Of a DNA stretch of 38,344 nt, positions 1 to 34,408 are shown piece by piece. The notes beneath the pieces are model-generated. The model did not search any database and had not been told where the DNA came from. It was given only the letters and a program-made list of their open reading frames with translations. Where the stretch lies: contig JASEJA010000001.1 of the NCBI GenBank assembly GCA_030017755.1, positions 1 to 38,344 on the forward strand, in the 5' to 3' direction. Each line of letters starts with the position of its first letter. Position 1 is the first letter of the stretch. The translations under genes were made by a program, and so were the position numbers. This DNA comes from Candidatus Bathyarchaeota archaeon (GTDB taxonomy: Archaea > Thermoproteota > Bathyarchaeia > Bathyarchaeales > Bathycorpusculaceae).

Positions 1-11
1 GGTGCCCGCAA

Positions 12-4821: not shown

Positions 4822-5808
4822 TTAATTTTTGGGCTTCAGATGCTTTTTTGAATTTTTTATTAATATTGCTATAGATAAGGTTGCCAGTAGTAGGATTAAG
4901 ATGGCGATAGCAGTGAATTCAGGAATCACCGTGTAAGTGTAGTATTCGCCGGCTTTGTCATCGGATGCAAAGTTTCCAGCGTAATCATAGGCTTCTATTT
5001 TATACTTGACTAGCGTGCCGAGGGCTTGACCTGGAATTTCAGCTTCCCAGAAGCCACTAGTTGCGTTAAATTCCATCGACAGACTTTTTGATGTTGTCCA
5101 ATTATCTGTTGTGTATATAAGTGTAACATTCTTTACACCAGTTTCGTAATCCGTGACATTCACTGAAACCTTGACTACTTGAGTTTCTAGCACATTATCC
5201 GGAGGCGGATCTTGTGTAACTTCAACAATTTCTGGATGAGTAGTGTCCAATGCATATTCATAGTATCCATGTATAGGAGTATAAGGCATTTCAACAATGT
5301 CTGGGTCTAGCAAGTATGTGTCTTCAGCGTCAAGGGTCAAATTGCAAGAAAGTGATTCGCCAGGTGTTGTAGGTGCACTTATTATTTTGAAGGTTATGGT
5401 TGCTAAGACTCCGCTACCGTTAACGCCGGGTACTTCGCCTAACAAAGATGCACCCATCATAACATAGCCGGTGGTGTTGTCAATCACTGGTGTGGGTGTA
5501 ACCGGGAATTTGAATGGGCTGTCTGCTGGAATGAAAGCCTTTGTGCACTGCAGTAGGCTTGGGTCAAAGTGTAATTTAACCTGCCAATTATATAGGTTTG
5601 TGACGTCTGTCACTGTGGCGTTAACAACAAAGGTGCTGTTAACAGGAGTGGTCTCAACGTAAAATATGTTGTCCTTCGGAACTATTGATACTGTGGTTCC
5701 GTCAGTAGCTTGAGCAACAATTTTTGGCGATGTGGAAAAGATTAGTGCAGCAGCGATTAGTATTAGGCAAATCAGGGATATACTGTGTTTCAGATTGATT
5801 TTTCTCAT
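4822..5808 (-). CDS. cohesin-domain surface protein with C-terminal PEF-like membrane anchor
   Basis: Signal peptide; cohesin-like NATVTDVTNLYNWQVKLHFDPSLLQCTKAFIPADSPF...GSGVLATITFKI; Ig-like domain; VIPEFTAIAILILLLATLSIAILIKNSKK. Confidence 0.75.
   Translation of the reverse strand: MRKINLKHSISLICLILIAAALIFSTSPKIVAQATDGTTVSIVPKDNIFYVETTPVNSTFVVNATVTDVTNLYNWQVKLHFDPSLLQCTKAFIPADSPFKFPVTPTPVIDNTTGYVMMGASLLGEVPGVNGSGVLATITFKIISAPTTPGESLSCNLTLDAEDTYLLDPDIVEMPYTPIHGYYEYALDTTHPEIVEVTQDPPPDNVLETQVVKVSVNVTDYETGVKNVTLIYTTDNWTTSKSLSMEFNATSGFWEAEIPGQALGTLVKYKIEAYDYAGNFASDDKAGEYYTYTVIPEFTAIAILILLLATLSIAILIKNSKKHLKPKN
5453..5561. repeat. 109-nt near-identical tract shared with 11692..11800
   Basis: cccatcataacatagccggtggtgttgtcaatcactggtgtgggtgtaaccg[g/c]gaatttgaatgggctgtctgctggaatgaaagcctttgtgcactgcagtaggcttg; one mismatch by eye. 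Confidence 0.9.
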
Positions 5809-5883: not shown

Positions 5884-6951
5884 TTAAGGATGTTTTGTTC
5901 CACGGGTCTCTTTTAGAAGTTTTCTTCTCTTAACATATTTATATGTATGTTTAGTTGTGGCGTATACTATCCATAGCACTATTAAACCGAAAAAGGTTGC
6001 AATGACCGGAGTATAGTCCAAGGGCCTTAGAGCTAAACCCACCGTAATGCTCTGAGATTTTGTGTCGCTTATCCCATCATTGTCCACCACTTCAAGTTTA
6101 ATTTTCACCACAGTGTAAGTTTTGCGATAGGTATGATAAATTACTGAGGTGTCAACTTCGGTTATGTTTCCATCGCCAAAATCCCAAATGTACTTTACAA
6201 TATATCCATCGAGGTCATAGGAGCGGGAAGCGTTAAACAGAATGGGTTCGTTCACCAAGTAAGGCGTGTCAACGACTAAGAACAGATTTTCATGCGATAG
6301 CACCGTTGGCGAAATGCTAAATGCGGCGAAAGGTGGACTTTTCATTCCCATGGTAGCTATTGAACCACTTTCTTCAGTAAAGGGCATCTCGTTCATTTCT
6401 AAGTCCTGTAAGAATGTGTGGAACTCGTATGGGATCCACGTTCCATCAGGCATCTGCCATGCCCCTGGAGGGACGGCCGGGTAATCTCTGGTTGCGATTC
6501 TGAGGCTGGTTTGTCCAGCATGTAGAACCGTGAAGTTCATGGAGCATAAAATTCCAACATCGGGAACGTTGACCGTGTCCAAGCCTAGAATGTTTGCTCC
6601 ATAGACTATGAAGCCATAGGTCGTGAAATTTTTAAACTCAAGCGGTGCGATTACCGCACTTTTACCTTTGAAAATGTTGTCTTCTGGAAGCCACGCAGCC
6701 GTGCAATTTACGACTGTAACGTTATATTCTATTGCAACCTGCCAACCGAAAATGTTTGAAGCATCACTCACCGTTATATTAACTGTGAATGCGTCTCCAG
6801 GCGATAACCAAGTTATTTCTCTAGGAACTATGGAGATTTTTGTTTCTGGAGAGCCATGTACGTAGGAAAAATTGAAGGAAGAAGTTACTAAAAGAATTGT
6901 TATTAATGCAATGCTAAGCTTTAGGTAAGAGCTACTGTTCAACGTTTGCAC
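5884..6951 (-). CDS. cohesin-like plus PKD-domain surface protein with C-terminal TM
   Basis: Cohesin-like NITVSDASNIFGWQVAIEYNVTVVNCTAAWLPEDNIF; PKD motif FNASRSYDLDGYIVKYIWDFGDGNITEVDTSVIYHTY; TM PVIATFFGLIVLWIVYATT. Confidence 0.75.
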   Translation of the reverse strand: MQTLNSSSYLKLSIALITILLVTSSFNFSYVHGSPETKISIVPREITWLSPGDAFTVNITVSDASNIFGWQVAIEYNVTVVNCTAAWLPEDNIFKGKSAVIAPLEFKNFTTYGFIVYGANILGLDTVNVPDVGILCSMNFTVLHAGQTSLRIATRDYPAVPPGAWQMPDGTWIPYEFHTFLQDLEMNEMPFTEESGSIATMGMKSPPFAAFSISPTVLSHENLFLVVDTPYLVNEPILFNASRSYDLDGYIVKYIWDFGDGNITEVDTSVIYHTYRKTYTVVKIKLEVVDNDGISDTKSQSITVGLALRPLDYTPVIATFFGLIVLWIVYATTKHTYKYVKRRKLLKETRGTKHP

Positions 6952-7039: not shown

Positions 7040-8926
7040 TCACGGGCAGCTTTTTCCGTAATTTATTGCGGCTAATCCTATGTCCAGCATGTCTATTTTT
7101 TTGTCTTGATTTAGGTCGGCTTCAGGATTCCATCGTGGATGTAATATATTTGAACCGTAAGTTAGACAGATTAGGCCTATGTCAGCCATGTCTACTTTTC
7201 CATCATCATTTACATCTCCAATCAATCTAACTTTTATAGTTCCGTTGGTGAAAGTGTTGTCTGTTAGATCTGTTTCGTACGGAACTGGAGCGGCTTCTGC
7301 GGATATTGTGTAATTGTGACATGCTGGTACACCAGCGGTATTCCAGGTGAGTGTTATTGTCGTATTTCCGTTTGGAGGTAAGTTTTCAACAGTTATTATA
7401 CCGATAAGTGTTGCGTCGTAGAAAGCTTTAACGTCAAATGTTTCTGTCAGATCTCCCTCGTTCTTCACGGTGACGTTAATGTGGGCAAGCCATCCTTGAT
7501 AGACCCATGTTGAATAAGTTTTAACATCAATTATTGCTATGTCCCTTATAACCGATGCGAAATATCCATTTTGGACTTCATGTATTATCGGCTGACCTGT
7601 TGAGTCTTTAAGGACGGTGTCTGTTAGGTTCAATGGACTAGTGCCGAAAGCATCAACGTGAAAAGTTATTCGGAGGAGTGGTAATGGCGAATAGGTTGTT
7701 ATGGGGTTTGGATAGGTGAGTTTGATCCATACAAAGCCTGCTTCGTCACTTTGAATCATACTTGTTGTGGGGGTTTGGTTCAAAACTTTGAAGAATGTTA
7801 TGCCGATGAAGCCTAGCGGAGCAGTGTTGTAGGTTAGGTTGAACTGACAGGACTTCATGTCTTCAACATCGTCCAGAGTTATGTTTATATAAAATTCGTT
7901 GCAAGGGACAAGTGTAGGATCTATTATTTCTTGGGGTTCTACACTTAGTTTGGCAATCAACATGTTGTTGAAGTAGCCGTTGAAAGTGTCGTGTGGAAGA
8001 GTGTTACCCAGTGAGTCGTATAGGGCTTCCTCAATTATCGGTATGGATGTTTCACCAAAATCTTTCACGTGAAAAGTGATTGTTGCAAGGTCTCCGTCGC
8101 CGTTAACTCCGACGCCATCCATTATCGTACAGCTCATTAAGACAACTCCGTGCGTCGCATTGAAAGTATATAGGATGTCAAATTCAAAATCTGTTGTGCC
8201 GCCTAACTTTAGAAATGATCCTTCAGTCACGTTTAGAACGTCTATGATTGCTGTTGGAAACGGCACAGTTAGTTGCCAAGCGTAAAGGTCTGTAGCGTTT
8301 GTTATGCTCATGCTTAGAGTGAAGTTGTGGCATGGTGTTAACGTTGGATCAACCACTCTTGGAGGATTCACGTAGAGCTTTGCTGGTGGTGGAGGCACCC
8401 AATTGCTAAAGTAGCCGTCTTCTAACGTTGCTGGAATTTCCACCATATCGGGATCAAGCAGATACGTGTCTTCGCCGTAAGGTCTGGAATAGTTTATGTA
8501 TGAGGAGCCTATGCCCTTAACTTCAAATTCGATGCATGCTAGAACCCCGCTTCCGCTGACGCCGGGAGCCGTACCAAGCTGGGATGCACCCAACATGACG
8601 TAGCCTGTGTCATTATCAATTATTGGTGTTGGTTGTACCGGAAATCCAAATGGGCTGTCGGAGGGGATCCAAGCACGTGCGCAGCCTAATACGCTTGGAT
8701 TAAATGTCGCTTTTATCTGCCAGTTCCAGAGGTTAACGACGTCGCTTACTGTAGCGTTAATAATGAATGTTGTGCCGATGTCTTTTGAGGGGTCTATTAC
8801 TGAGGGGGGATTAATTGAAAGTGTCGCTATTTCTGGCGCGAATATTGGTTTAATAGTTAATATTGATGATAAAAGAGTTATTGCCGCAAGCCATATGATA
8901 ACTCCCGTTACTGCCTTAATTTTCAT
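7040..8926 (-). CDS. multi-cohesin adaptor: three cohesin-like domains, CARDB, C-terminal dockerin
   Basis: Three DxxxLWxWQ/CQ...GxG/DLATITF-type units; CARDB VKNEGDLTETFDVKAFYDATLIG; dockerin GDVNDDGKVDMADIGLICLTYGSN...ADLNQDKKIDMLDIGLAAINYGKS. Confidence 0.8.
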   Translation of the reverse strand: MKIKAVTGVIIWLAAITLLSSILTIKPIFAPEIATLSINPPSVIDPSKDIGTTFIINATVSDVVNLWNWQIKATFNPSVLGCARAWIPSDSPFGFPVQPTPIIDNDTGYVMLGASQLGTAPGVSGSGVLACIEFEVKGIGSSYINYSRPYGEDTYLLDPDMVEIPATLEDGYFSNWVPPPPAKLYVNPPRVVDPTLTPCHNFTLSMSITNATDLYAWQLTVPFPTAIIDVLNVTEGSFLKLGGTTDFEFDILYTFNATHGVVLMSCTIMDGVGVNGDGDLATITFHVKDFGETSIPIIEEALYDSLGNTLPHDTFNGYFNNMLIAKLSVEPQEIIDPTLVPCNEFYINITLDDVEDMKSCQFNLTYNTAPLGFIGITFFKVLNQTPTTSMIQSDEAGFVWIKLTYPNPITTYSPLPLLRITFHVDAFGTSPLNLTDTVLKDSTGQPIIHEVQNGYFASVIRDIAIIDVKTYSTWVYQGWLAHINVTVKNEGDLTETFDVKAFYDATLIGIITVENLPPNGNTTITLTWNTAGVPACHNYTISAEAAPVPYETDLTDNTFTNGTIKVRLIGDVNDDGKVDMADIGLICLTYGSNILHPRWNPEADLNQDKKIDMLDIGLAAINYGKSCP

Positions 8927-9077: not shown

Positions 9078-10079
9078 TCATACACCTGTGTTTCCATAGT
9101 TTTTGCATATTATGCCTATGTCCTTCATGTCGATTTTTCCATCATTGTTAAGGTCGCATCTTGGGTCCCAGTTTGGGTCGCCCGGTTTTGATCCGTAGGC
9201 TTTGGCTGCTAAGCCTATGTCCTTCATGTCTACTTTCATGTCTTCGTTTACATCTCCCACTAGTATTACTCGGAATTGTGCAGTGCTAAGAACGCTTTCA
9301 TTACCATATTTACATGATCCGTAAACCGTGTAGTTGCCTAGCATTACATCTAATTTTGGAAGTGTTATGGCAACTTGGAAGTTTGAAGTGGATGATGTGG
9401 AAATTAAGGTGTAAGCTGAAAGCTGACTTCCAGTACTTGATGTTGAAGTTATTGTAAAGGTAGCGTTCTTTTCTGGACAGTAGGGGATTCCTCCGTTTTT
9501 CGGGAAATCTGTGTAAAGGCTTGAGTAAATAGTTGTTATTCCAGTTGGAGCCGTGGATGATATTTCAAATGAAGCAATTATGTAGCTTGAAGAGTTCGCT
9601 GAAGTTGATACCTTGTTGTAAAAGGCTTGGAATGGGGAACCTGTTGAGAATTGAAGGTAGAACGCTACCATAATAGATTGGGAAACATTGCTGTTGTTTT
9701 TCCATACAACCTTCGCGTAAGCTGTGGAGCCTCTCATGAAACTATTTTGGGGATTTCCATACATGTCGCATGAGTATAAATCTGTTATTTCCACAAGCCA
9801 GTTTGCACCTTCTATGGCGTCTGTTTGTAATGTTCTGAAAACGTAATATCTATATTCCGTATCTATTTCTAATGCTATGAGGGCATCCTGCGCTGGTGAG
9901 CCATCTAATGTTAGGTTTCCTTGGATTATGACTGTTTCTCCAGCGTTGTATGTTTGTTTATTTGTTGTTATTGTTAGCGTAAGTGTTGAAGCTGAAACAG
10001 GTTTTGTTACAATTAAGAGTAAACATAGTGTCACCGCAATTAAAATGCTCTTCAAATTCAAGAATTTCTTCATTTGCAT
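9078..10079 (-). CDS. secreted dockerin protein with MG2/Big-like N-terminal domain
   Basis: Signal peptide; TTNKQTYNAGETVIIQGNLTLDGSPAQDALIALEI; C-terminal dockerin GDVNEDMKVDMKDIGLAAKAYGSKPGDPNWDPRCDLNNDGKIDMKDIGIICKNYG. Confidence 0.8.
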   Translation of the reverse strand: MQMKKFLNLKSILIAVTLCLLLIVTKPVSASTLTLTITTNKQTYNAGETVIIQGNLTLDGSPAQDALIALEIDTEYRYYVFRTLQTDAIEGANWLVEITDLYSCDMYGNPQNSFMRGSTAYAKVVWKNNSNVSQSIMVAFYLQFSTGSPFQAFYNKVSTSANSSSYIIASFEISSTAPTGITTIYSSLYTDFPKNGGIPYCPEKNATFTITSTSSTGSQLSAYTLISTSSTSNFQVAITLPKLDVMLGNYTVYGSCKYGNESVLSTAQFRVILVGDVNEDMKVDMKDIGLAAKAYGSKPGDPNWDPRCDLNNDGKIDMKDIGIICKNYGNTGV

Positions 10080-10155
10080 CTTGTTTCACTCGTTAGTAGA
10101 AAGTTTGTTTTGGAAGTAATAAGGCTTATGGATTTTTCTTCTACGTTCTAAAGAG

Positions 10156-10167
10156 AAAAAAGGGGGG
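10156..10167 (-). terminator. putative terminator (minus reads CCCCCCTTTTTT)
   Basis: About 20 nt downstream of the stop of 10188..12125. Confidence 0.45.
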
Positions 10168-10187
10168 TGTTGAATGGTTTTTCTTTT

Positions 10188-12125
10188 TTATGGTCGTTTG
10201 ATGTAGAAGTCTATTGTGTTTGTCTTTTCTGGGCAGTATGGTGTTCCGTTGTTCCATGGAAGGTTGTTATAGGCGTTACCATAGACTGTTCCTTTGCCTA
10301 CCACGGCATGCGAAGGCATTGGTATGCTGATTATCCATGTGTCTGTGCGGAATTCACAATAGTGTCCGTATTCGCCCCAGCCGAATTCTCCGATGTAGTA
10401 TACATCGTGGCCTATTACGAAGCCTAGCTCGTCGTACACTACTACTGTGAGGTATACTGGAACTGGCTGCATGCGATATGTGCGGAATTCCATTACGAAT
10501 TCTAATGGGTCGTTGACTAATGGTTTCCTCTTGATGAACTTTGTTACTTTCGGTTCGATGCTTGTTATTTCAACCGGCCACCAAACTTTGAATGGCATCG
10601 TGTCGTTTGCAACTTTTTCTGCTACTTCAACTGTTGCTCTCGCTATCCATTCACCTAACACTCTACCTTCTGGGTTATCGCATGGCCATGGAATTCTGAA
10701 CGACACGTGAGCTATGCCGATGTCGTTGGTTGTGGCTTCTCTGTAGATGTAGAATTCTCCGTGGCGGACTTCAAAGGCTACAAGTTTCTGTTGCACCGGG
10801 TCGTCGTTATATTTGACTAGTGCATAGAGCTCTACTTGCACTTGTGGAGCAAATGAGTCGCTTGGCATGTTAAAGTCTTGTCCACCGTATGGACGTGGAT
10901 ATTGTGAGTATAGGTCTAGACTTAAGCCTAATACGCGCATTGGAGCGCGGTAGTTTCCACCAATGCATGTTCCTAGGGGGATTTCATCCATGTGTTGGTT
11001 TAGTGCGTAGCCGTAGAAGTTGTCGTTGGGGTCCAATGGGTTGCCTTCCAGACTTGTGAAGCTTAAGTCTGTCCAAGCTTCCTCAGGAGATATTGTTTCA
11101 TAAATGGCTGTGAAGTGTAGGCTTACGAGTAGGCCTTCTCCCTCTGGGAATGGTGCATGCCAGACGTTGCCGTCTCCGGGCATTATTATTACGCCGACTG
11201 TCCAAGCGTTGTAGCCTGGTGGAAGCGCGGCGTCACCCATATAATCGAAAGCACTTGCATAAATCACTGATTCGCCGTTGTTTGTAAAGTTTTCCATGAA
11301 CGTTCCTTCAGTATAGTTAACTGGCTCTAGAAGGGTAGCATTAAATCTTAAGGCGAACTGAAAGCCTATAATCTCCCATGCTGGGTCAACGTTTTTCACT
11401 AGAATGTCTATTTGGACATCTTGACCTAAGACTCTTGCTTTGTATTCAGCTGGATAAACCATGTAGTATGGATAAATTTCTGGTGGGGCCCAGAATATTT
11501 CGTAGTGTCCAGGTTCAGAGGTGAAAGGTATATCCGCCATGTCTGGGTCCAATAAGAACGTGTCAACAGCATCGAAGGTAAAGTCGCAACTGTAATATTC
11601 TTCATATCCAACTCCTTGTGCCACTTCAAAGACTATCCAAGCTAGGTCTCCGCTACCACTCACGCCTGGTTCACCACCTAGCCTGCTTGACCCCATCATA
11701 ACATAGCCGGTGGTGTTGTCAATCACTGGTGTGGGTGTAACCGCGAATTTGAATGGGCTGTCTGCTGGAATGAAAGCCTTTGTGCACTGCAGTAGGCTTG
11801 CGTTAAAGTATAACTTAATCTGCCAGTTCCATAGGTTTGTGACGGCCCCAAGGTATACGCGTATGTAGAATATATCGCCAGCATGAGTGTCAGCGTGGAA
11901 TATTATGTCGCCTGGTCCAGCTGGTGTTAAATCTTTTTTTGTGTCGTATGTGTGGCTTGCAGTCCAGTAAGTTCGGTCTACGTGTGCAAGGTCATAAGTG
12001 TCGTCAGGGTTTAACACCGAAATGGTCGCAATCTGAGCATAGGCTGCTGGAAAAGCCATAATCATTCCGAAGACAAGCATTGCAATGAGGTAGACACTAA
12101 TAACTTTCAAGGAATTCTCTTTCAT
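10188..12125 (-). CDS. secreted protein with two cohesin-like domains and uncharacterised C-terminal domains
   Basis: Signal peptide; VTNLWNWQIKLYFNASLLQCTKAFIPADSPF...GSGDLAWIVFEV; second cohesin-like IIGFQFALRFNATLLEPVNYTEGTFMENF; no dockerin or C-terminal TM. Confidence 0.75.
   Translation of the reverse strand: MKENSLKVISVYLIAMLVFGMIMAFPAAYAQIATISVLNPDDTYDLAHVDRTYWTASHTYDTKKDLTPAGPGDIIFHADTHAGDIFYIRVYLGAVTNLWNWQIKLYFNASLLQCTKAFIPADSPFKFAVTPTPVIDNTTGYVMMGSSRLGGEPGVSGSGDLAWIVFEVAQGVGYEEYYSCDFTFDAVDTFLLDPDMADIPFTSEPGHYEIFWAPPEIYPYYMVYPAEYKARVLGQDVQIDILVKNVDPAWEIIGFQFALRFNATLLEPVNYTEGTFMENFTNNGESVIYASAFDYMGDAALPPGYNAWTVGVIIMPGDGNVWHAPFPEGEGLLVSLHFTAIYETISPEEAWTDLSFTSLEGNPLDPNDNFYGYALNQHMDEIPLGTCIGGNYRAPMRVLGLSLDLYSQYPRPYGGQDFNMPSDSFAPQVQVELYALVKYNDDPVQQKLVAFEVRHGEFYIYREATTNDIGIAHVSFRIPWPCDNPEGRVLGEWIARATVEVAEKVANDTMPFKVWWPVEITSIEPKVTKFIKRKPLVNDPLEFVMEFRTYRMQPVPVYLTVVVYDELGFVIGHDVYYIGEFGWGEYGHYCEFRTDTWIISIPMPSHAVVGKGTVYGNAYNNLPWNNGTPYCPEKTNTIDFYIKRP
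11692..11800. repeat. 109-nt near-identical tract shared with 5453..5561
   Basis: Same tract inside another cohesin gene; flanks diverge quickly. Confidence 0.9.
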
Positions 12126-12256: not shown

Positions 12257-13342
12257 TCATTTGCCTAACTCAGAGGAAATAACATGGCAAGCGACAAGAT
12301 GTCCATTTCCAACATCAACAAGCTGGGGTTCTTCCTTGCGACAAACATCAGTAACGGACTGGCATCTGGGGTGAAATCTGCAGCCGCTCGGCGGATTAAC
12401 AGGGCTTGGAACATCCCCTGTTAAGGGTGGACGCTCCCTCCTTCTGGTGGGATCTGGTATTGGGATTGAGGCAAATAGCCCTTGAGCATATGGATGTAAA
12501 GGTTCCTTGAAAAGTTCCTCTGTTGTGGCTACTTCAACAATTTTTCCAAGATACATAACCGCAACTCTATCGCTGATAACTTCCACGACGCTCAAATCGT
12601 GGCTAACAAACATGTAGGTTAAACCGAAATCCTTGCCTAAATCTTTGAAGAGGTTTAGAAGCTGCGCCCTAACGCTCACGTCTACCGACGATGTGGGCTC
12701 ATCTAAAACAACAAATTCCGGGCGGACAATGAGGGCCCGGGACACAGCGATTCTCTGTCTTTGTCCGCCACTAAACTCATGCGGATACCGGCAAAGATGT
12801 TTCTCACTTAAGCCAACCCTTTCAAGCATATCAACGACCATTTTTTTGGCTTCAGAGCCGCGTGCTAATCCTTGGGCTACAAGCGGTTCGGCAACTATGT
12901 CCTTAACAAGCATTCTTGGATCCAAAGAGGTTGTGGGGTCTTGATAAACAATTTGCATTTTACGCCTTAACTGCCTAAGTTTTCTTCCTTTAAAAGTGGC
13001 TAAATCATACTCCTCTCTAATCCGCCTTAGCTTTGAGGAACGCGGATTCTCTTTTTCAAGCTTATCAATTTCCTCTAAAATGTCTTCGGGAATATTGTAG
13101 TAAATGCTACCTGCGTCAGGAGTGAGAAGCCTAATGATTGTTTTTCCAAGAGTTGTTTTTCCACAGCCCGATTCGCCAACCAGTCCGAAGCATTCACCCT
13201 TCATTATAGTGAGGTTAACTCCATCAACAGCCTTAACATCAGCCATCTTCCTCTTAAAGATACCACCAATTATAGGATAATACTTCTTCAGTCCTTTTAT
13301 ATGTAACAAAGTGCTCATTTCGAACCTCCGTAGAGATTGCAT
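12257..13342 (-). CDS. oppF: oligo/dipeptide ABC transporter ATP-binding protein (OppF/DppF-like)
   Basis: GESGCGKTTLGKT, YQDPTTSLDPR, FSGGQRQRIAVSRAL, VVLDEPTSSVDVSV, C-terminal GCRFHPRCQ. True start probably MSTLLHIKG, about 24 nt inside the ORF. Confidence 0.93.
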   Translation of the reverse strand: MQSLRRFEMSTLLHIKGLKKYYPIIGGIFKRKMADVKAVDGVNLTIMKGECFGLVGESGCGKTTLGKTIIRLLTPDAGSIYYNIPEDILEEIDKLEKENPRSSKLRRIREEYDLATFKGRKLRQLRRKMQIVYQDPTTSLDPRMLVKDIVAEPLVAQGLARGSEAKKMVVDMLERVGLSEKHLCRYPHEFSGGQRQRIAVSRALIVRPEFVVLDEPTSSVDVSVRAQLLNLFKDLGKDFGLTYMFVSHDLSVVEVISDRVAVMYLGKIVEVATTEELFKEPLHPYAQGLFASIPIPDPTRRRERPPLTGDVPSPVNPPSGCRFHPRCQSVTDVCRKEEPQLVDVGNGHLVACHVISSELGK

Positions 13343-14481
13343 GCTACAAAATGATCTTTCTCAACTTCAGTGAAGGCAGGTTTAACTTTACGACAAATCT
13401 CCATTGCATAGGAGCATCTGTCATGAAATCTGCAGCCAGATGGAGGATTTAGTAAGCTGGGAACTGTGCCAGGTATGGACTTAAGCGGTTTGCCTGGTCG
13501 AGGAATGGATTCAAGCAGTCCACGCGTGTACGGATGTAAAGGCTTCTTAAAAAGTTCATATACATCAGCGAGTTCAACGACATTTCCTGCATACATAACG
13601 GCAACTCTGTCAGAGATCTCCGAAATAACGCCTAAATCGTGAGTAATATATAATACTGATGATTTAAACATGCTCTTCAATCTTTTTATTAGACTTAGGA
13701 TTTGAGCCTGCACTGTGACATCAAGGTTTGTTGTTGGTTCATCTGCTATCAGAAGTTTTGGGTTACATGCCAAAGCCATGGCAATTACTACCCTTTGAGC
13801 CATGCCGCCGCTGAGCTCGTGGGGGTACATTTTTGCAACTCTTTCGGGGTCAGGTATCCCCATTCCTCTAAGGATGCGAACAACCTCTCTCTGCACTTCT
13901 AGTTTGAATCTGCGTTGGGAACCTGGAATTTTGGATAAAATCTTATTGGTCAAGGAGTTTGGATTTTTGAGCATTCTCTCATAGAGGTTCATTTCGAAGG
14001 TTGAGCCTTTTAATCCCTTTTTCCTCCGCTCTTGCTTAAGAGATTCAAGTGCTTTTTTCAGAAACTCCTCTTTCCTATGTTTGACTAGGACTTCTGAGAT
14101 TTGGCTCGAAACCGTGTAAACCGGGTTCAGGTAGACTCTTGGCTCTTGGAAGACCATGGAAATGTCCTTGCCTCTTATAGTTCTGAGATGCTCATCGCTC
14201 TGTTTTAACAGGTCTACTTTTTTACCTTGAACGTTGAAGAGTATGCGTCCGCCCTCTATTTTTCCTGGAGATGGGATCAGAACTAACGTTGAGAGGCTTG
14301 TCACACTTTTTCCGCATCCGGTTTCGCCGACTAAGCCTAAGGTTTCGCCATCGCGGATATACAGGTTTACGCCGTCTAAAGCTTGAACTATTCCTTCGTA
14401 AGTGTAGAAGTTTAAGACCAAACCATTTATTTCCAGTAGCCTTTCCTCAGTCATTCTATCTCCTCCGAAGGGTTGGGTCAA
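13315..14481 (-). CDS. oppD: oligo/dipeptide ABC transporter ATP-binding protein (OppD/DppD-like)
   Basis: GETGCGKSVTSLS, FQEPRVYLNPVY, LSGGMAQRVVIAMAL, LLIADEPTTNLDVTV, GCRFHDRCSYAMEICR. Confidence 0.93.
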   Translation of the reverse strand: MTQPFGGDRMTEERLLEINGLVLNFYTYEGIVQALDGVNLYIRDGETLGLVGETGCGKSVTSLSTLVLIPSPGKIEGGRILFNVQGKKVDLLKQSDEHLRTIRGKDISMVFQEPRVYLNPVYTVSSQISEVLVKHRKEEFLKKALESLKQERRKKGLKGSTFEMNLYERMLKNPNSLTNKILSKIPGSQRRFKLEVQREVVRILRGMGIPDPERVAKMYPHELSGGMAQRVVIAMALACNPKLLIADEPTTNLDVTVQAQILSLIKRLKSMFKSSVLYITHDLGVISEISDRVAVMYAGNVVELADVYELFKKPLHPYTRGLLESIPRPGKPLKSIPGTVPSLLNPPSGCRFHDRCSYAMEICRKVKPAFTEVEKDHFVACNLYGGSK

Positions 14482-15562
14482 GGACGTCTCGAAGGGCGTC
14501 GCCTAATAGGTTCCATCCCAAAACGAAAACGAAAATGAATATTCCGGGAATCAAGAATACATGCATATATCGTATGAGTTCTCTACCGATCCAGTTTCGG
14601 GATCTCTGTATTATTTGCCCCCAGTCTGCATAATTTGGTGGAGCACCAAGTCCTAGGAAACTAAGCGCTGCAGCTGTCAAAACTATCGACCCTATATCGA
14701 GGGAGGCCATTATAATAATTGGGTATATTGCGTTTGGCAGTATATGTTTTATGACTATTCCTAGGTCGGAAGTTCCAGCAGCCTTAGCAGCTTCTATGTA
14801 ATCTTCGTTTTTCACTCGTAGAACTTCGCCTCGGATGACCCTTGCGTACGAGGGCCATCCAATAAGCCAAAGAGTAATTAACACTTTGTCTAGGTTGTTC
14901 AAGCTGAATCTTAGATTTAAGGGATATAGCAGAACAGAAGCTAGGACGGCGATAAAGATTATCAGCAGAATTACTTTTATTTTCATTCTTGCTCGCGTTA
15001 TAAATGCAAAAAAGGTTGTTAAGCCAAAGATAACGACTAGGATGAATGATACGTTTAGAGTGAATACGGTTGGTATGGCTATTACTAATGCCATCGCAAG
15101 AATCAGTCCAGGGAAAGCTATTATTATATCTGTGAATCGCATAAGTGCCTCGTCGGCTAGGCCGCCGTAGTATGCAGCTGCTACTCCAATAATAATTCCA
15201 ATCATTAGAGCAACCATAACAGTTGTTATGCCTATTCGGAAAGCAGTGATTGTGCCCCAAATGCAAGCGTAGTATATGTCGTAGTGCTGGTCTGTTGTTC
15301 CAAAGGGATGCTCTATTGTGGGAGGGGTTGGCAACGGAGATAACTTGGCGATTTCTTCATCTCTGGGAATAATAAATGGGTCAGCGTAGGGTGGAGGTGC
15401 TAGGACGGGGGATAGGGCTGATAGGATTACGAAGCCTAATATTATTGCTATTCCAACTAATGACAGCGGGCTTTCCTGCACTCTTTTAAACATGAATTTC
15501 CATTCTTTAATTCTCGGTTGCATTGAAGCTTTAAATTCTTCCCATCTTGAACTTGTGGTCAT
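14456..15562 (-). CDS. oppC: oligo/dipeptide ABC transporter permease (OppC/DppC-like)
   Basis: HPFGTTDQHYDIY, EALMRFTDIIIAFPGLILAMAL, EAAKAAGTSDLGIVIKHILPNA, LSFLGLGAPPNYADWGQII. Confidence 0.92.
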   Translation of the reverse strand: MTTSSRWEEFKASMQPRIKEWKFMFKRVQESPLSLVGIAIILGFVILSALSPVLAPPPYADPFIIPRDEEIAKLSPLPTPPTIEHPFGTTDQHYDIYYACIWGTITAFRIGITTVMVALMIGIIIGVAAAYYGGLADEALMRFTDIIIAFPGLILAMALVIAIPTVFTLNVSFILVVIFGLTTFFAFITRARMKIKVILLIIFIAVLASVLLYPLNLRFSLNNLDKVLITLWLIGWPSYARVIRGEVLRVKNEDYIEAAKAAGTSDLGIVIKHILPNAIYPIIIMASLDIGSIVLTAAALSFLGLGAPPNYADWGQIIQRSRNWIGRELIRYMHVFLIPGIFIFVFVLGWNLLGDALRDVLDPTLRRR

Positions 15563-15565
15563 ATT

Positions 15566-16618
15566 TTACGCCAACCTTATCCTCGGATCAATAAACGCGT
15601 AAAGCACGTCAACTATAAGGTTTGCTATAACGAATACTATGGCTGTAAACATCGCAAAGCCGAGAACCGAAGGTACATCTAATTGTTGAGCGGACTGGGC
15701 AGCCCAACTGCCGAGTCCACCGAACCCGAACACAGTTTCAGTTATTACGACACCAGTCATTAAACTGGCAACTAAGAGGCCTGAAATAGTTGTTACAGGT
15801 ATTAACGCGTTTCGTCTTGCATGTTTATTTATAACTTCCTTTTGCGTCAAACCCTTAGCTTTAGCGGTGATTATGTATCCCTTGCTTAACGCTTCAAGCA
15901 TAGATGAACGCGCCACTCTAATGATGAGCGCTATATCAATTACGGTTATAACGGTGGCTGGTAAAATAACATGTTTGAAGGCATCCCAAGAAACCGCTAA
16001 TTGACCATTTAAAATGCCATCCAGAATGTATAAGCCAGTATACTTGGTAAATAATTGGGAGGAATCAACAAAGTGCTGTACTTCTCTAGTGAGTCTCCCG
16101 GGGGGAAGCCAGCCTAGATAACCGTAGAATACTGCCATAAGTATGAAACCAAACCAGAATGAGGGGAGCGACCAACCAATTATGGCTGCTGATCTTGTAA
16201 TGTGGTCAAGGATTTTGTCCTTGTAAACGGCAGATTGAATGCCTAAGTATAAGCCTAGAATGATAATAACTGGTGCTGCAAACACTATTATTTCAAATGT
16301 TGCGGGGAATCTGACGAGTATGGCAGAAAAAACCGGCGCGCTTGCTGTTTGTGACCAGCCTAGGTTTCCTTGTAGAACCTGAGCTAACCAGGTAAAATAT
16401 TGAATGTAGAATGGATCGTTTAGATGATACTTTTTTATAACGCCTTCAATGTTTTCTGGGGTTAGTGCTTGAGGATTTCTTATATACAGTAACGCCCTTA
16501 TCGTCGGCGGAAAACACATCGTGATGGCAAATATTAGCATAGAGACGCCTAACACCACTGGAATTAAAAGGATTAATCTTCTCGCCACATATGTTAGTAG
16601 GCCCAGCTTTCTCACCAT
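15566..16618 (-). CDS. oppB: oligo/dipeptide ABC transporter permease (OppB/DppB-like)
   Basis: YVARRLILLIPVVLGVSMLIF, YHLNDPFYIQYFTWLAQVLQGNLGWS, YIITAKAKGLTQKEVINKHARRNALIPV, DPRIRLA end. Confidence 0.93.
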   Translation of the reverse strand: MVRKLGLLTYVARRLILLIPVVLGVSMLIFAITMCFPPTIRALLYIRNPQALTPENIEGVIKKYHLNDPFYIQYFTWLAQVLQGNLGWSQTASAPVFSAILVRFPATFEIIVFAAPVIIILGLYLGIQSAVYKDKILDHITRSAAIIGWSLPSFWFGFILMAVFYGYLGWLPPGRLTREVQHFVDSSQLFTKYTGLYILDGILNGQLAVSWDAFKHVILPATVITVIDIALIIRVARSSMLEALSKGYIITAKAKGLTQKEVINKHARRNALIPVTTISGLLVASLMTGVVITETVFGFGGLGSWAAQSAQQLDVPSVLGFAMFTAIVFVIANLIVDVLYAFIDPRIRLA

Positions 16619-16730: not shown

Positions 16731-18923
16731 TTATGGAGGTGGAGCCCAGACTGATGATGTTTTTCCGTAGTCTTTGGCTGCAAAGCCTATGTCTTTCATG
16801 TCAATTTTTCTGTCATTGTTTATGTCGCATCTAAAGTGCCATCTTTCGTGGAGCGGTGGACCATATGTTGCACCGTATGATTTACATGTATAGCCTATGT
16901 CCTTCATGTCCACTTTGCCGTCGTAGTTTACATCTTCTGGTAGCCTATTGCTATAATCATATGGCGGATAATCGGGAAATTCGCTGTGTGGTACGTAGTA
17001 CCACTTCCACAGGTTGTAGAAGTAGATTCCTGGTGAAATTGTGTTGTAGTGCCATCCTACAACCCAGTCGCGTTCGAAGTGGCGACCAACAGCCTGGTAT
17101 AACGGAATGCTTGGAGTTTCTTGTCTTGCTAGCACTTGGATATCATGGTAAATTTGGCACCTTTTCACTGGATCAGACTCTTCGATGCCCTTCTTAATCA
17201 GATCATCCATGGTTGGATTACTGTATTTCTGACATGCTGCAAACGTGCCTTCACTGTGGTAGAACGGAAATGCAAAGTTATGCGGGTCTGGATAGTCAGC
17301 CAACCAGCCGATAATGAAAGTTGCTAACTGACTGCGAACCATGGCGCCTAGGTATGGTTTCCAGTCTATGTTTACGATATTTACCACGAAGCTGGTATGA
17401 TATTTAGCGTTGATAGCATCAATGCCTTCTTTAAGCTTTTCACAAGCTCTTTGCCTTGGAATGTTGCCTGTGTTGTAAGTTACAGTTACAGTGAAGCCTG
17501 TTCCTACGAGTCCTGGAACCTTCGAGAACTCATCATAAGCCTTATCGATATTGTACGTATAGCCCGGTATTGATCCGTCGTAGCATACAAGGCCTGGAAT
17601 GATGGCTGTTGCAGGTGCGATTGCTTCGCCTAGAAACGCCGTCTGCAAATAAGTTGTATAGTCAAAGGCATATGCGAATGCCAATCTTGTGTGTATGCCC
17701 CATGTTGGGTTGCCGAAGAAGTCTCTTGGAATACCGTCTGCGGTGAAGACTCCATAATCATTTATTGTTCCATAGGGGGTTGCTGGATCTACGTCAAACG
17801 TGAAGAACAGCGATCCAACAGCAAGCACTGGAAGTGGATAAGTGCAGCGCAATCCTGGTTGACCGACAATTGTGCCTATGTATTCTCTTGGGACTGCACA
17901 GAAGTCAACATCGCCAGCGAGGAACATGGAGCTTCTCGCTGGCCACTCATAGGCCCATGTTACTGTTGCTGTGTCGACGTATCCGGCTGGTGTTGGGTTT
18001 TTAGCGGGATCTGACGGATATGGTGGTGCAGGCCACTCTGCAGGCCAGCCTCTCCAATAGTTAACGTTTCTCTCAACAGTCCAGTACTTTGCGGCATAGT
18101 CCAAGATCACTAGTTTGTATGGGCCTGTTCCGCACATTATGGGTGAGGGGTCATCCAGTGGTGACACTGCTGGGTCATGGTATGCTAACCAGCTAGTGTA
18201 GTCAGGCCAGTCGCCAGGCCACTCTGGCCTGTGAAGGGTTCCAATAACGTATTCATTTACCCATTGTTTGCTTAGAATGCTCGACCATGACTGCGATAGA
18301 ATTTGCAGGAACGGTGCGTATGGGCCTGGAAAAGCGAGGTTAAACCAGACGTGTGTAGCGTTTGATTCTACGGCATGATCAATCATCTTGCCTACCAATT
18401 CAGCCTCGGGTCCTGGGACAGTTGCAGTGCCGATGTTCCATGCCTCAGCGCCCCAGCTGTTCAGTAATGGTTCATAAAACATCCATTGTGGACCGCCGCA
18501 TCTATCCTGAATCATTCCACGTTCAATGCTATATTCGACATCCTTAGGTGTAAGCAGGTGGCCGCTGGTGAAATTGACATTCTGTCTTATTTTGAATGTG
18601 TATCTATACCGACAGAATAGACCTTCAGGGCTTGTCCAATTGACTTCCTGGAGGGTATACTCCGTCGCAAGCTGTGGAATGAAGTGCTCTAGTGACTCTC
18701 CATCGAAGTATAATAGGGTATCGTAAACGTTGAATATTAGTTCAGCGCTTGCCGTGTCATAGCACCAAGCAGGGTCAACAGTTTCAGGGACGCCGCCCTC
18801 GATTGTTGCAACGTAGATCCCCATAGGTCTTTTGATCACTGGTGCAGCGAAAGCAGGTGTCAGCAGCAAGGATCCAAGCATTAGGAAAACCGAAATTAGA
18901 GCTAATGAAACGACTTTTTTCAT
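16731..18923 (-). CDS. oppA: ABC transporter substrate-binding protein family 5 (OppA/DppA-like) with C-terminal dockerin
   Basis: SBP_bac_5 features (TVDPAWCYDTASAELIFNVYDTLL, TSGHLLTPKDVEYSIER, CGTGPYKL, ADYPDPHNFAFPFYHSEG); C-terminal dockerin EDVNYDGKVDMKDIGYTCKSYG...CDINNDRKIDMKDIGFAAKDYGKT. Confidence 0.93.
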   Translation of the reverse strand: MKKVVSLALISVFLMLGSLLLTPAFAAPVIKRPMGIYVATIEGGVPETVDPAWCYDTASAELIFNVYDTLLYFDGESLEHFIPQLATEYTLQEVNWTSPEGLFCRYRYTFKIRQNVNFTSGHLLTPKDVEYSIERGMIQDRCGGPQWMFYEPLLNSWGAEAWNIGTATVPGPEAELVGKMIDHAVESNATHVWFNLAFPGPYAPFLQILSQSWSSILSKQWVNEYVIGTLHRPEWPGDWPDYTSWLAYHDPAVSPLDDPSPIMCGTGPYKLVILDYAAKYWTVERNVNYWRGWPAEWPAPPYPSDPAKNPTPAGYVDTATVTWAYEWPARSSMFLAGDVDFCAVPREYIGTIVGQPGLRCTYPLPVLAVGSLFFTFDVDPATPYGTINDYGVFTADGIPRDFFGNPTWGIHTRLAFAYAFDYTTYLQTAFLGEAIAPATAIIPGLVCYDGSIPGYTYNIDKAYDEFSKVPGLVGTGFTVTVTYNTGNIPRQRACEKLKEGIDAINAKYHTSFVVNIVNIDWKPYLGAMVRSQLATFIIGWLADYPDPHNFAFPFYHSEGTFAACQKYSNPTMDDLIKKGIEESDPVKRCQIYHDIQVLARQETPSIPLYQAVGRHFERDWVVGWHYNTISPGIYFYNLWKWYYVPHSEFPDYPPYDYSNRLPEDVNYDGKVDMKDIGYTCKSYGATYGPPLHERWHFRCDINNDRKIDMKDIGFAAKDYGKTSSVWAPPP

Positions 18924-24389: not shown

Positions 24390-24695
24390 ATGTTAAAGTT
24401 TCACAAGGACATATTAAAGGAATTCAAGTCGGTTGGCAAACATGCAAAGATTATACTTTTTGGTTCCCTGGCTAGGGGCGATTATAGGCTGGATTCTGAC
24501 ATTGACTTAGCGATAATGACAAGAGACAGAAGCTTGATGAAGCTATCCTCGTCTATTGCTGATAAGATACTCGTGGAATACGGGAAGCTCGTGTCGCTCA
24601 AGTTCATAGGTGAGGAAGACTTCGATAAGGAGGATTCCCCTATTAAAGACGAAATTAAAAAGGGGATGGTGATATATAACGGAAGAAACCGTTAA
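24390..24695 (+). CDS. minimal nucleotidyltransferase, MntA-like antitoxin candidate
   Basis: ILFGSLARGDYRLDSDIDLAIMTRD. Confidence 0.85.
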   Translation: MLKFHKDILKEFKSVGKHAKIILFGSLARGDYRLDSDIDLAIMTRDRSLMKLSSSIADKILVEYGKLVSLKFIGEEDFDKEDSPIKDEIKKGMVIYNGRNR

Positions 24696-24735
24696 ACTCC
24701 GAATAAGAGAAGAACTTGATACGGCAAAAAGAAGG

Positions 24736-25074
24736 TTGAAAGCGGCTAAACTCCTTCTTGAAGAAGGCATGTTGGATGACGCTGTAAACAGAGCATACTA
24801 CTCCTTTTTCCACGCCGCTAAAGCTATGCTTAACGTTTTAGGATTCGATGCAAAAACACATTCAGGTTTAATATCAGAGTTCGGATTAAGAATAATAAAA
24901 ACAAACCTGTTAGACAAAAAATTTGCGGAATACTTTAGAAGGGCTTTTGAGATGAGAGAAAGCAGCGACTACGAAATAGGCGTGATATTCGGGGAAGAGG
25001 AAGTGCAAACGCTTCTCAAAAACGCAGAAGAATTTTTGAAAAAGGCCCAAGAGTTCACTGCGAAGAGACTTTAA
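24736..25074 (+). CDS. HEPN-domain protein, HepT-like toxin candidate
   Basis: AVNRAYYSFFHAAKAMLNVLGFDAKTHSGLISEFG contains R-X6-H (RAYYSFFH). Coding similarity extends upstream of the called TTG start. Confidence 0.8.
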   Translation: MKAAKLLLEEGMLDDAVNRAYYSFFHAAKAMLNVLGFDAKTHSGLISEFGLRIIKTNLLDKKFAEYFRRAFEMRESSDYEIGVIFGEEEVQTLLKNAEEFLKKAQEFTAKRL

Positions 25075-25098: not shown

Positions 25099-25577
25099 CT
25101 AAAACATTAGATATATTATGTATATGTAAAAACTGAGGAGTATGGCTAGAACCATAGCAGTTTCGATGACGTTTACGAATTGTTGGTGAAATCTAAGCTT
25201 CCAAATGAAAGCTTCAGCGACGTTATACATAGGTCGCTCAAAAAAGGGATGGTTAAGAGACATCGCAGGTTCGCTGACCATTAGCGACAAAAATGCCAAC
25301 CTACCGTTGCCATTTTTGCCGGAAACATCTCCGCATAGAGAGCCGCCTAATAGCAACATGCCATCGCCGATGTCCGTTGCATTCCACGAGGGATACTTGG
25401 CTCCAACAAATCCGCCAGGAATGACTTTCAAGACCTTTAACTCGCTTGAGTTGTAAACTATCAAGACTTGCCAAGCGTATAAATCCTCTACATTGATAAT
25501 GTCAACAGCTACGGTAAAGTTTCCAATAATTACAGGTTCTCGGCTTGCCTCCTCAGGTGACGGCTGAACAAAAAACC
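25099..25577 (-). pseudogene. cohesin-domain gene remnant
   Basis: Minus frame ARFFVQPSPEEASREPVIIGNFTVAVDIINVEDLYAWQVLIVYNSSELKVLKVIPGGFVG...GGSLCGDVSGKNGNGRLAFLSLMV. No start codon or signal peptide visible. Confidence 0.7.
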
Positions 25578-25579
25578 TT

Positions 25580-25741
25580 GCTAAAACGTACCCGGATGTT
25601 GAGGAAAACTTTGAAGAGGAAAGGAATCCGCTTATAGACGAGATTAAAAGGGAATTGTGATTTACGATGGGGGAAAACGTTAAAATTCGAACAAAAGAAG
25701 AGATGGAGACAATAATTCAAAATACAGATGAATTTTTATAA
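25580..25741 (+). pseudogene. deleted NT-HEPN module remnant
   Basis: EENFEEERNPLIDEIKRE (NT C-terminus with 1-nt shift), then MGENVKIRTKEEME joined to TIIQNTDEFL (HEPN start and end, middle missing). Confidence 0.7.
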
Positions 25742-25876: not shown

Positions 25877-26281
25877 ATGCGAAGAACCCATGATTGGTTA
25901 AGACAGGCAAAAAAGGATCTTAAACACGCCAAAAAGAGCATAGGTTTAAACGACTACGAATGGAGCTGCTTCTCAGCCCAACAAGCCGCAGAGAAAGGCG
26001 TCAAGGCCCTTTTCCAAGCCTTAAGAGCAGAGGCTGTGGGGCACTCTGTCTCATTACTGCTAAAAAAGCTGCCAAAAAACCATGTCCCAAACGAGCAACT
26101 GATAAATCAAGCAAAAGCCTTAGACAGACATTACATTCCATCAAGATACCCAAACTTCCATCCAGAAGGAGCCCCATTAGACTATTACACAAGGGAAGAC
26201 GCGGAGGAAGCGGTCAAAATTGCAGAAAAAATCATCAAATTCTGTGAAGATAAAATACGCATTATCGAAAGAGAAAGCTGA
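25877..26281 (+). CDS. HEPN-domain protein (COG2250-like)
   Basis: WLRQAKKDLKHAKKSI...CFSAQQAAEKGVKALFQALRAEAVGHSVSLLLKKLP...LDRHYIPSRYPNFHPEGAPLDYY. Confidence 0.88.
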   Translation: MRRTHDWLRQAKKDLKHAKKSIGLNDYEWSCFSAQQAAEKGVKALFQALRAEAVGHSVSLLLKKLPKNHVPNEQLINQAKALDRHYIPSRYPNFHPEGAPLDYYTREDAEEAVKIAEKIIKFCEDKIRIIERES

Positions 26282-26606
26282 ACTTCTAATCAGGCAGTAT
26301 ATAAACAGAATTAAGAGAACTATAGGTTTAGAGTTGGCGATAATTTTCGGCTCATACGCAAAAGGCAACTACTCCTGGGGAAGCGACATAGACATTCTCC
26401 TCGTAGCCAAAAAACTCCCCAAAAGATTATTGGATAGGCAGCCAATTTTAATCGAACCCAACATTCCAATACAAATAGATCCATTCGCTTACACACCCGA
26501 AGAATTCGAAAAAATGTTAAAAGAAAAACATCCACTCATAATTGAAGCATTAAAAAACGGAAAAATCATTTATTCAAAAGGAAAAACATATACACGTCTT
26601 TTCTAA
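26220..26606 (+). CDS. nucleotidyltransferase partner of the upstream HEPN gene
   Basis: LAIIFGSYAKGNYSWGSDIDILLVAKKL. True start may lie inside this ORF; overlaps the HEPN 3' end. Confidence 0.85.
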   Translation: MQKKSSNSVKIKYALSKEKAELLIRQYINRIKRTIGLELAIIFGSYAKGNYSWGSDIDILLVAKKLPKRLLDRQPILIEPNIPIQIDPFAYTPEEFEKMLKEKHPLIIEALKNGKIIYSKGKTYTRLF

Positions 26607-26756: not shown

Positions 26757-27407
26757 ATGTCACAAAAAGCCTATGACATCAAAGTTTTCGGCAAAGTCCA
26801 GAGAATAGGCTACAGGCGATTCATCTTAGAGAATGCACAAGAACTCGGGTTGATAGGTTTCGTACGAAATGAGGCGGACGGATCCGTCACGGTGTTTGTC
26901 CAAGGAGAAGAAAGCCTAATTGAACAATTTTTGAAAAGAATCAAGGAACCCCCACGACCAGCCATCGTAAAAAGCCTTGAAGCCAAACCTGCGGAGGTAA
27001 ACCCGGATTTAAAGTTTTTCACCATCGAATTTGGCTCCTTGGCCGAAGAACTCCAAGAAGGCTTTGGCTCCGTGGAAAAAGAATTTAGAGACTACAGAGA
27101 AGAGTTCAGGAATTACAGACAAGAGTTCAGAGATTATAGACAAGAGTTTAGAAGCTTCGTCGGCGAATTTGGAGACTACAGGAAGGAGTTTAGAGATTAT
27201 AGACAAGAGTTCAGAAACTTTGCAGAGCGAACCGATAAAAACTTCGAAAACCTCGCTCAAAAATACGGGGAAATATCGGAAAAGTTGACGCAAGTTCTTG
27301 AAACATTGCAGAAAGAGTCTGCTGAGACTAGAAAGGAACTTATAAGGGCGGTGGACGCTTTGACAGAGCTCATAAAACAGTTCATAGCGAAGCAGAGTTT
27401 CACTTAG
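26757..27407 (+). CDS. acylphosphatase domain fused to long heptad-repeat coiled coil
   Basis: GKVQRIGYRRFILENAQELGLIGFVRNEADGSVTVFVQGEESLIEQFLKRIKEP (catalytic R and N retained), then EFRDYRQ heptads and an amphipathic C-terminus. Confidence 0.85.
   Translation: MSQKAYDIKVFGKVQRIGYRRFILENAQELGLIGFVRNEADGSVTVFVQGEESLIEQFLKRIKEPPRPAIVKSLEAKPAEVNPDLKFFTIEFGSLAEELQEGFGSVEKEFRDYREEFRNYRQEFRDYRQEFRSFVGEFGDYRKEFRDYRQEFRNFAERTDKNFENLAQKYGEISEKLTQVLETLQKESAETRKELIRAVDALTELIKQFIAKQSFT
27081..27227 (+). repeat. 21-nt tandem repeat, seven in-frame units
   Basis: EFRDYRE EFRNYRQ EFRDYRQ EFRSFVG EFGDYRK EFRDYRQ EFRNFAE = 147 nt. Confidence 0.85.
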
Positions 27408-28018: not shown

Positions 28019-28324
28019 ATGTTAAAATTTCATAAGGAAATCCTAAAGGAATTCGAGCCCGTTGGCAAAAACGCCAAAATCATACTATTTGGCTCATTAG
28101 CTAAAGGCAGTTATAGACTGGATTCAGACATCGACTTGGCAATAATAACAAAGGATAAAAACTTAATGGAGTTGGCTTCTTCCATCGCCGACAAGATACT
28201 CGCAGAACAGGGAAAACTTGTATCCCTCAAATTCATAGAAGAAAAAGAACTTGAAGATGGAAAAAGCCCATTTATAAAGGAGATTAAAAAGGGAATCGTG
28301 CAAAAGAAGACTGGAAGCAGCTGA
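28019..28324 (+). CDS. minimal nucleotidyltransferase (paralog of 24390..24695), C-terminus altered by deletion
   Basis: ILFGSLAKGSYRLDSDIDLAIITKDKNLMELASSIADKILAEQGKLVSLKFIEE intact; tail QKKTGSS reads into HEPN sequence out of frame. Confidence 0.8.
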   Translation: MLKFHKEILKEFEPVGKNAKIILFGSLAKGSYRLDSDIDLAIITKDKNLMELASSIADKILAEQGKLVSLKFIEEKELEDGKSPFIKEIKKGIVQKKTGSS

Positions 28325-30448: not shown

Positions 30449-30805
30449 TTAGAGTGGCGAGCGGTTATACATAACTTTACCCTTTTCCGTTACCTCCAAG
30501 ATGAAAGCGTTCTTCCTTCTTTTCATATCCATGAATTCTTGGATGGTATATCCTACAGGTTCGATGGGTATTCCAAACTTGTTCATATCCATCAGTTTAG
30601 CTATCCTATCAAGGAAGCTCTCTTGAAAATCTGCTACGACTAGAATGTCAATGTCGGAGCCCTCATTGATATTGTTAGTGGCAAAAGACCCAAATAAAAC
30701 TATCAAGTAAGGGTTTAGGTTTCTTATCACCTCTTGGACATAAGCCTCTATCTTCTTAAAAATCTCCTCACTTCTTTCAATATTGACTCTGCGTAGTTTA
30801 AGCAT
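30449..30805 (-). CDS. nucleotidyltransferase
   Basis: LIVLFGSFATNNINEGSDIDILVVADF. Confidence 0.85.
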   Translation of the reverse strand: MLKLRRVNIERSEEIFKKIEAYVQEVIRNLNPYLIVLFGSFATNNINEGSDIDILVVADFQESFLDRIAKLMDMNKFGIPIEPVGYTIQEFMDMKRRKNAFILEVTEKGKVMYNRSPL

Positions 30806-31164
30806 TTTTTAGAAATCTCCTCTGTATAATATTTATAGGCTGGTCCTTTAGGATAAAAGTTTGGATATCTCGACCCTATATAATGTCTATCAAGTTCTTT
30901 TCCATGGTCGAGGAATTCTTTAAAAACTTTTTCCAGTTTGGAAGATTCCTCTAAAAGTTCCGTTACAGAGTGCGTTATTATGGCTCTATATCCCTTTGAA
31001 TATAAGAATCCCTTAAGCGCCTTTTCAGCTGATTGTTGAGAAAAGAAGGCGCTGGCATAGTAATTTTGATCTTTTAAGCAGTCTTTGGCGGTTTTCAAGT
31101 CTGCCTCAGCTTGATCAAGCCACCTTAATCCCTCTTCCAAGTTGTCCATAGTTACAGCCTTCAA
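30748..31164 (-). CDS. HEPN-domain protein (COG2250-like)
   Basis: WLDQAEADLKTAKDCLKDQNYYASAFFSQQSAEKALKGFLYSKGYRAIITHSVTELLEE...LDRHYIGSRYPNFYPKGPAYKYY. Confidence 0.88.
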   Translation of the reverse strand: MKAVTMDNLEEGLRWLDQAEADLKTAKDCLKDQNYYASAFFSQQSAEKALKGFLYSKGYRAIITHSVTELLEESSKLEKVFKEFLDHGKELDRHYIGSRYPNFYPKGPAYKYYTEEISKKCLNYAESILKEVRRFLRR

Positions 31165-34407: not shown

Positions 34408-34408
34408 C

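Follow-up and report, generated by a model that had tools for sequence, protein, structure and literature searches.

How is a secreted solute-binding protein (SBP) held beside its importer when its chain ends in a dockerin and shows no other recognisable anchor? To our knowledge, the retention of secreted binding proteins beside importers is only partly known for archaea, the accepted means being transmembrane (TM) helices, lipids and pilin-like signals, and the function of archaeal cohesin-dockerin pairs outside cellulosomes is largely open. The question is raised by a stretch of 38,344 nucleotides from a Candidatus Bathyarchaeota archaeon (GCA_030017755.1, contig JASEJA010000001.1, positions 1 to 38,344), referred to here as the window. 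Within it, a reading made from the sequence only had placed an OppA-like protein with a C-terminal dockerin at 16731 to 18923. These coordinates stand, and the gene lies on the minus strand, the plus strand being full of stops.

16731..18923, minus: OppA/DppA-like solute-binding protein with a C-terminal dockerin, 730 aa (reading frame and domain search)
18846..18923, minus: signal peptide MKKVVSLALISVFLMLGSLLLTPAFA, cleavage likely between AFA and AP, no lipobox Cys (hydropathy and reading)
17247..18683, minus: SBP_bac_5 domain (PF00496)
16752..16943, minus: dockerin with two F-hand repeats, aa 661-724; repeats DVNYDGKVDMKD (16899..16934) and DINNDRKIDMKD (16791..16826)

The binding protein and its dockerin

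Residues 81-559 of the protein matched SBP_bac_5 (PF00496) with 122 bits and an E value of 3.6e-35, which places it in SBP family 5, and the two BPD permeases and two Opp/Dpp-type ATPases encoded with it (12257..16618) provide the gene context of that family. The closest PDB matches, HbpA, DppA and OppA, each cover part of the chain, and no NCBIfam equivalog scored above its cut-off for the SBP. No second SBP_bac_5 gene was found in the MAG, which is 88% complete and 1.2 Mb in size. The sequence AGAGGGAGAAGGAGAGA, directly 5' of the ATG, resembles a ribosome-binding site. Archaeal promoters differ from the sigma-70 type, and a scan for sigma-70-type promoters gave a site count not above that of shuffles.

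The sequence-only reading had described a signal peptide lacking a Cys for lipid anchoring and a chain lacking a C-terminal TM helix. Both descriptions hold, as judged by hydropathy and reading of the sequence rather than by a trained predictor: the AFA and AP residues form a likely cleavage site, no Cys occurs among residues 1-50, and the sole further hydrophobic stretch (aa 429-447) is part of the SBP domain. Class III proteins of the bindosome type begin with a short basic leader that runs into a pilin-like hydrophobic segment; this SBP has no such N-terminus, and its signal is of the cleavable AxA type. The protein would thus be secreted and soluble after cleavage of the signal peptide.

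Both repeats of the duplicated Ca-binding dockerin were found as the same reading had quoted them, with loops at aa 664-675 and 700-711. The Ca-ligand positions 1, 3, 5, 9 and 12 are D or N throughout the two loops, as in type I-like dockerins. Pfam Dockerin_1 gave 16.9 bits on the SBP, below the cut-off of 22.9, and was passed by the two sibling dockerins of the window (24.9 and 29.9 bits). Despite this sub-threshold score, the match is not a chance one, because a local dockerin profile of three rows (the SBP row included) had exactly three matches in the whole MAG, all three being the window dockerins, and the solved dockerin 2y3n_B was matched by sequence (E 9e-4 with the SBP, 2e-6 with the scaffoldin described below).

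An array of importer, cohesin and dockerin genes

The SBP gene is the first of ten genes that lie on one strand over 14 kb, with intergenic gaps of about 150 bases or less. The other nine follow in this order.

15566..16618, minus: OppB/DppB-type permease
14456..15562, minus: OppC/DppC-type permease
13315..14481, minus: OppD-type ATPase
12257..13342, minus: OppF/DppF-type ATPase
10188..12125, minus: secreted two-cohesin protein, 645 aa, no C-terminal TM helix, no dockerin
9078..10079, minus: secreted dockerin protein, 333 aa, weak MG2-like match N-terminal to the dockerin
7040..8926, minus: scaffoldin with three cohesins, CARDB and a C-terminal dockerin, 628 aa, no C-terminal TM helix
5884..6951, minus: cohesin and PKD protein with a membrane anchor, C-terminal TM helix at 5956..6012 and basic tail
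4822..5808, minus: cohesin protein with a membrane anchor, C-terminal TM helix at 4858..4914 and basic tail

The last two proteins had been named as TM-anchored cohesins in the sequence-only reading, and they are real: C-terminal TM helices (aa 314-332 in 5884..6951 and aa 299-317 in 4822..5808) are followed by K/R-rich tails. That reading did not contain the cohesin proteins at 7040..8926 and 10188..12125, the dockerin protein at 9078..10079, or a further cohesin-like domain outside the array.

25102..25716, minus: eighth cohesin-like domain with a hydrophobic segment C-terminal to it, no clear start codon (E 2.6e-11 with a local profile; no Pfam match)

From its sequence, this last feature is possibly a remnant; alternatively, it may encode a third TM-anchored cohesin whose start was not recognised. 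The array contains all three dockerins found in the MAG and seven of the nine cohesin domains found there, the eighth being the domain just listed. The ninth, the only one outside the window, is a partial cohesin with CARDB on the minus strand of another locus (L213:9444-10058), cut by the end of contig C93; it was revealed by a more sensitive profile, which ruled out a Pfam-based reading that confined the cohesins of the MAG to the window. The arrangement of the array recurs, locally rearranged, in three other genomes (G120, G121 and G135).

As in the clostridial cellulosome, the array encodes a multi-cohesin scaffoldin with its own dockerin, separate surface-anchored cohesins and dockerin-tagged cargo. 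It differs in that the cargo is a transport receptor and the anchors are TM helices, and no glycoside hydrolase was found among the three dockerin proteins of the genome. Because the alignments were shallow (four rows for the SBP and seven for the scaffoldin), the AlphaFold models were of low confidence, with mean pLDDT values of 31 and 47, and the first cohesin of the scaffoldin was the only usable part. Foldseek matched it to type II and archaeal cohesins, including, at an E value of 2.3e-5, 2xdh from Archaeoglobus fulgidus, so this low-confidence model suggests a likeness to the archaeal cohesin fold of that non-cellulosomal cohesin-dockerin system.

Elsewhere, the window contains three HEPN/nucleotidyltransferase (MNT) gene pairs within 7 kb (24390..25074, 25877..26606 and 30449..31164), which are toxin-antitoxin-like, and a lone nucleotidyltransferase-like ORF at 28019..28324. 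On the plus strand lie an acylphosphatase fusion whose long coiled-coil tail is repetitive, with EFRDYRQEF repeats (26757..27407), a two-domain ABC permease and a TOBE ATPase next to which no binding-protein gene was seen (32740..35515), and a surface protein with CARDB, a TM helix and a cytoplasmic tail resembling a zinc ribbon (3..1007).

Membrane helix and dockerin among relatives

Searches with the SBP covered the class (257 genomes) and the phylum (398 genomes), and those with the SBP_bac_5 family covered the class; the loci were annotated by local profiles. The comparison set comprised 141 SBP_bac_5 genes, mostly from Bathyarchaeia, and the relatives belonged to Bathyarchaeota and Hecatellales. 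The search for SBP_bac_5 plus dockerin architectures, which had been proposed along with the idea of a dockerin-held SBP, returned from these genomes twelve proteins with a C-terminal dockerin from nine genomes. A second, unrelated SBP family, Peripla_BP_6 (LivJ-type), also has members with a C-terminal dockerin in the class (L034:166-1728, L040:1486-3000 and L037:547-1716, the Peripla_BP_6 match of the last being sub-threshold). One of these dockerin SBPs shares its locus, which also encodes ABC ATPases, with an enzyme of the penicillin-amidase family that has CARDB and ends in a dockerin (L093:963-4430, minus).

In the subfamily of the window SBP, each complete member has a single retention device, which is an N-terminal TM helix, a C-terminal TM helix or a dockerin, as called from hydropathy and reading of the termini rather than by a trained predictor. 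Eleven members, the window SBP included, carry the dockerin, and four (L079, L080, L087 and L088) carry the C-terminal helix. A hydrophobic N-terminus with no obvious cleavage site is found in L090, L194-L199 and others, mostly outside the class. In a tree of 33 members, the forms with an N-terminal helix fall on one side, and TM and dockerin alternate among the remainder; well-supported branches force at least three changes of the dockerin label. Two sister pairs each join a TM member to a dockerin member with high support, L079 with L086 (100/100) and L087 with L089 (100/99), and a third, L088 with L078, is weakly supported.

The first of these pairs locates the exchange. L079 and L086 share 68% identity over 675 aa and diverge sharply thereafter in the tail, which consists of a beta-domain, a coiled coil and a TM helix in L079 and of a beta-domain and a dockerin in L086. 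The gene directly after L086 encodes a single-cohesin protein of 237 aa with a C-terminal TM helix. Residues 761-779 of the L086 SBP were considered as a TM helix and rejected, as the hydropathy is borderline (1.62), the stretch falls in a CARDB-like beta-domain, and the dockerin is C-terminal to it. A pairwise sign test on the tree found three independent pairs, each differing as expected, and gave p 0.25; it could not reach significance because only three independent swaps are firmly resolved.

The dockerin-bearing forms are linked to cohesins. A separate cohesin gene was present in the locus of 9 of the 12 dockerin-SBPs and of 2 of the 129 other SBP_bac_5 genes (Fisher p 2.5e-10) in fetched loci of up to about 20 kb, and the proportions were 7/10 and 2/80 (p 5e-7) where at least 4 kb of flank was available on both sides; relatedness among the genes compared makes such figures look stronger than they are. 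The three dockerin-SBP loci with no separate neighbouring cohesin gene are L077, L116 and L081, the cohesin of L081 being in its own chain. At the level of whole genomes, cohesins and dockerins are both present in those carrying the dockerin members L086 (G143), L089 (G139) and L078 (G057), and neither was detected in those carrying the TM members L087 (G168) and L088 (G161) or L090 with its N-terminal helix (G122). The genome of L079 (G111) is a counter-example: it has cohesins and a dockerin, and its SBP still has a TM helix. The L081 protein (8853-11978, plus) unites two dockerins and a cohesin in one SBP chain, and by its sequence it could self-assemble into chains.

In bacterial type I dockerins, loop positions 10-11 set specificity. 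These positions read MK/MK in the window SBP and in its neighbour at 9078..10079, and MA/ML in the scaffoldin. At the G135 locus nearly every dockerin, that of the SBP included, has GK/GK, and in G120 and G121 MD/MG or similar residues prevail. SBP dockerins matched non-SBP dockerins at these positions more often in their own genome (0.51) than in other genomes (0.22; permutation p 4.5e-4), and among 22 positions the within-genome excess was largest at position 10 and third largest at position 11. Over the remaining dockerin positions the excess was smaller (0.42 vs 0.36, p 1e-3), so that shared ancestry or gene conversion contributes to the likeness. The shared code fits a common pool of cohesin partners, for which ancestry or conversion may be a partial alternative.

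Probable retention by docking and its alternatives

The anatomy of the SBP, the absence of any other recognisable anchor, the gene linkage, the TM/dockerin swap and the common recognition residues are read directly from the DNA and its relatives. On these grounds, the SBP is probably retained by non-covalent docking, which would stand in for the TM anchor seen in its relatives and would involve the TM-anchored cohesins either directly or by way of the scaffoldin. Its dockerin would plug into cohesins encoded downstream and thereby hold it near the OppBCDF importer. By the direct route, it would bind the cohesins of 4822..5808 and 5884..6951; by the other, it would bind a scaffoldin cohesin, and the scaffoldin dockerin would in turn sit on a TM-anchored cohesin. 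The scaffoldin could let a single membrane anchor carry several SBPs, forming a small cellulosome-like array with receptors instead of enzymes. We infer the binding of SBP and cohesin, its Ca dependence, stoichiometry and choice of partner, as well as the ligand, which may be a peptide or another oligomer. The proposal that the dockerin replaces the usual anchor is thus borne out in part: the alternation of TM and dockerin, the sharp L079/L086 junction and the cohesin linkage favour it, but the anchor usual in this group is a TM helix and not a lipobox.

A different role for the same parts would be to place the SBP in an extracellular scaffold or surface layer away from the importer, for adhesion, matrix formation, capture of polymer-bound substrates or cell-cell contact rather than membrane retention for transport. 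Neither the scaffoldin nor the two-cohesin protein is TM-anchored, the surroundings of the cohesin-dockerin system include CARDB, PKD and beta-helix domains, which are frequent in surface and adhesion proteins, and the cohesin-dockerin systems of ANME archaea are discussed chiefly for surface attachment and partner contact. We nevertheless consider such a role unlikely, as the SBP gene heads OppBCDF, the dockerin stands in place of a TM anchor among relatives with the same importer genes, and the local module of L086 consists of an SBP-dockerin and one TM-cohesin only. Recruitment of accessory proteins by the dockerin, with the SBP held by another, unrecognised anchor, would suit the two other dockerin proteins and the soluble multi-cohesin proteins, and the anchors were predicted by hydropathy and reading only; yet the window SBP and most dockerin relatives have no lipobox Cys, C-terminal TM helix or uncleaved-looking N-terminal helix, whereas the relatives that lack a dockerin have a clear TM helix, and we regard this explanation as very improbable.

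The SBP might also be soluble under the S-layer, its dockerin being a vestigial or weakly selected addition that local shuffling of domains had brought in from dockerin genes nearby. Degenerate Ca loops do occur in two SBP dockerins (L078 and L089), and the likeness of whole dockerin domains within genomes suggests shuffling. Both loops are intact, however, in the window SBP and the loops are so in most dockerin relatives, the TM tail is recurrently lost where a dockerin is present, and dockerin-SBPs are strongly linked to cohesins, all of which makes a vestigial dockerin improbable. The degenerate dockerins (L078:7857-9947 and L089:10925-13336) were also seen to share helix motifs (DAG..SAHW and MRD...HFN/NFN) with another dockerin of the same locus.

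Archaeal SBPs are known to be retained by a class I signal peptide with a C-terminal TM helix, as class II lipoproteins, or through a class III pilin-like signal, as in the Sulfolobus bindosome (PMC2910488). Docking would likewise keep a secreted binding protein at the cell surface, and the bindosome also groups SBPs; those anchors are covalent or membrane-embedded in the SBP chain, whereas the window SBP ends in a protein-binding module. The architecture itself is not unique, since the passages covered of an earlier report on ANME archaea (Chadwick et al. 2022, PMC9012536) describe OppA/NikA and TroA proteins that bear dockerins, along with scaffoldins that have as many as five cohesins. By that description, which is the sole basis of the comparison, ANME share with the window the SBP-dockerin fusion and multi-cohesin scaffoldins ending in a dockerin, but they belong to another lineage (Halobacterota), and operon linkage, replacement of TM by dockerin and an anchor role for the SBP dockerin are not given in those passages. 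Archaeal cohesin-dockerin pairs are reported to bind (cited in PMC9012536); for the A. fulgidus pair, unlike the window proteins, no link to an SBP was found in the texts consulted. Literature searches combining dockerin with Bathyarchaeota, OppA or solute-binding protein gave no other report; subscription journals lay mostly outside their scope, and older reports are possible. What is new relative to the ANME dockerin-SBPs is the operon linkage, the anchor swap and the common recognition code.

The TM-anchored relatives mostly have no adjoining cohesins, which suggests, at the level of gene content, a swappable non-covalent surface retention of transport proteins. More tentatively, and with less confidence than we place in docking at this locus, the cohesin-dockerin pair may be a general, evolvable fourth mode of SBP retention in Bathyarchaeia, in which dockerins have repeatedly replaced TM tails, compatibility among SBPs, scaffoldin and anchors is maintained by a genome-specific recognition code, and several receptors are brought together round one importer by scaffoldins. 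The idea that a dockerin takes over from a TM tail can be tested directly on small recombinant domains, with the L079/L086 pair and the minimal two-gene module of L086. If it is correct, such a dockerin, beside its own cohesin anchors, would offer a means of retention that is reversible, modular and dependent on Ca, and archaeal cohesin-dockerin systems would have a concrete job.
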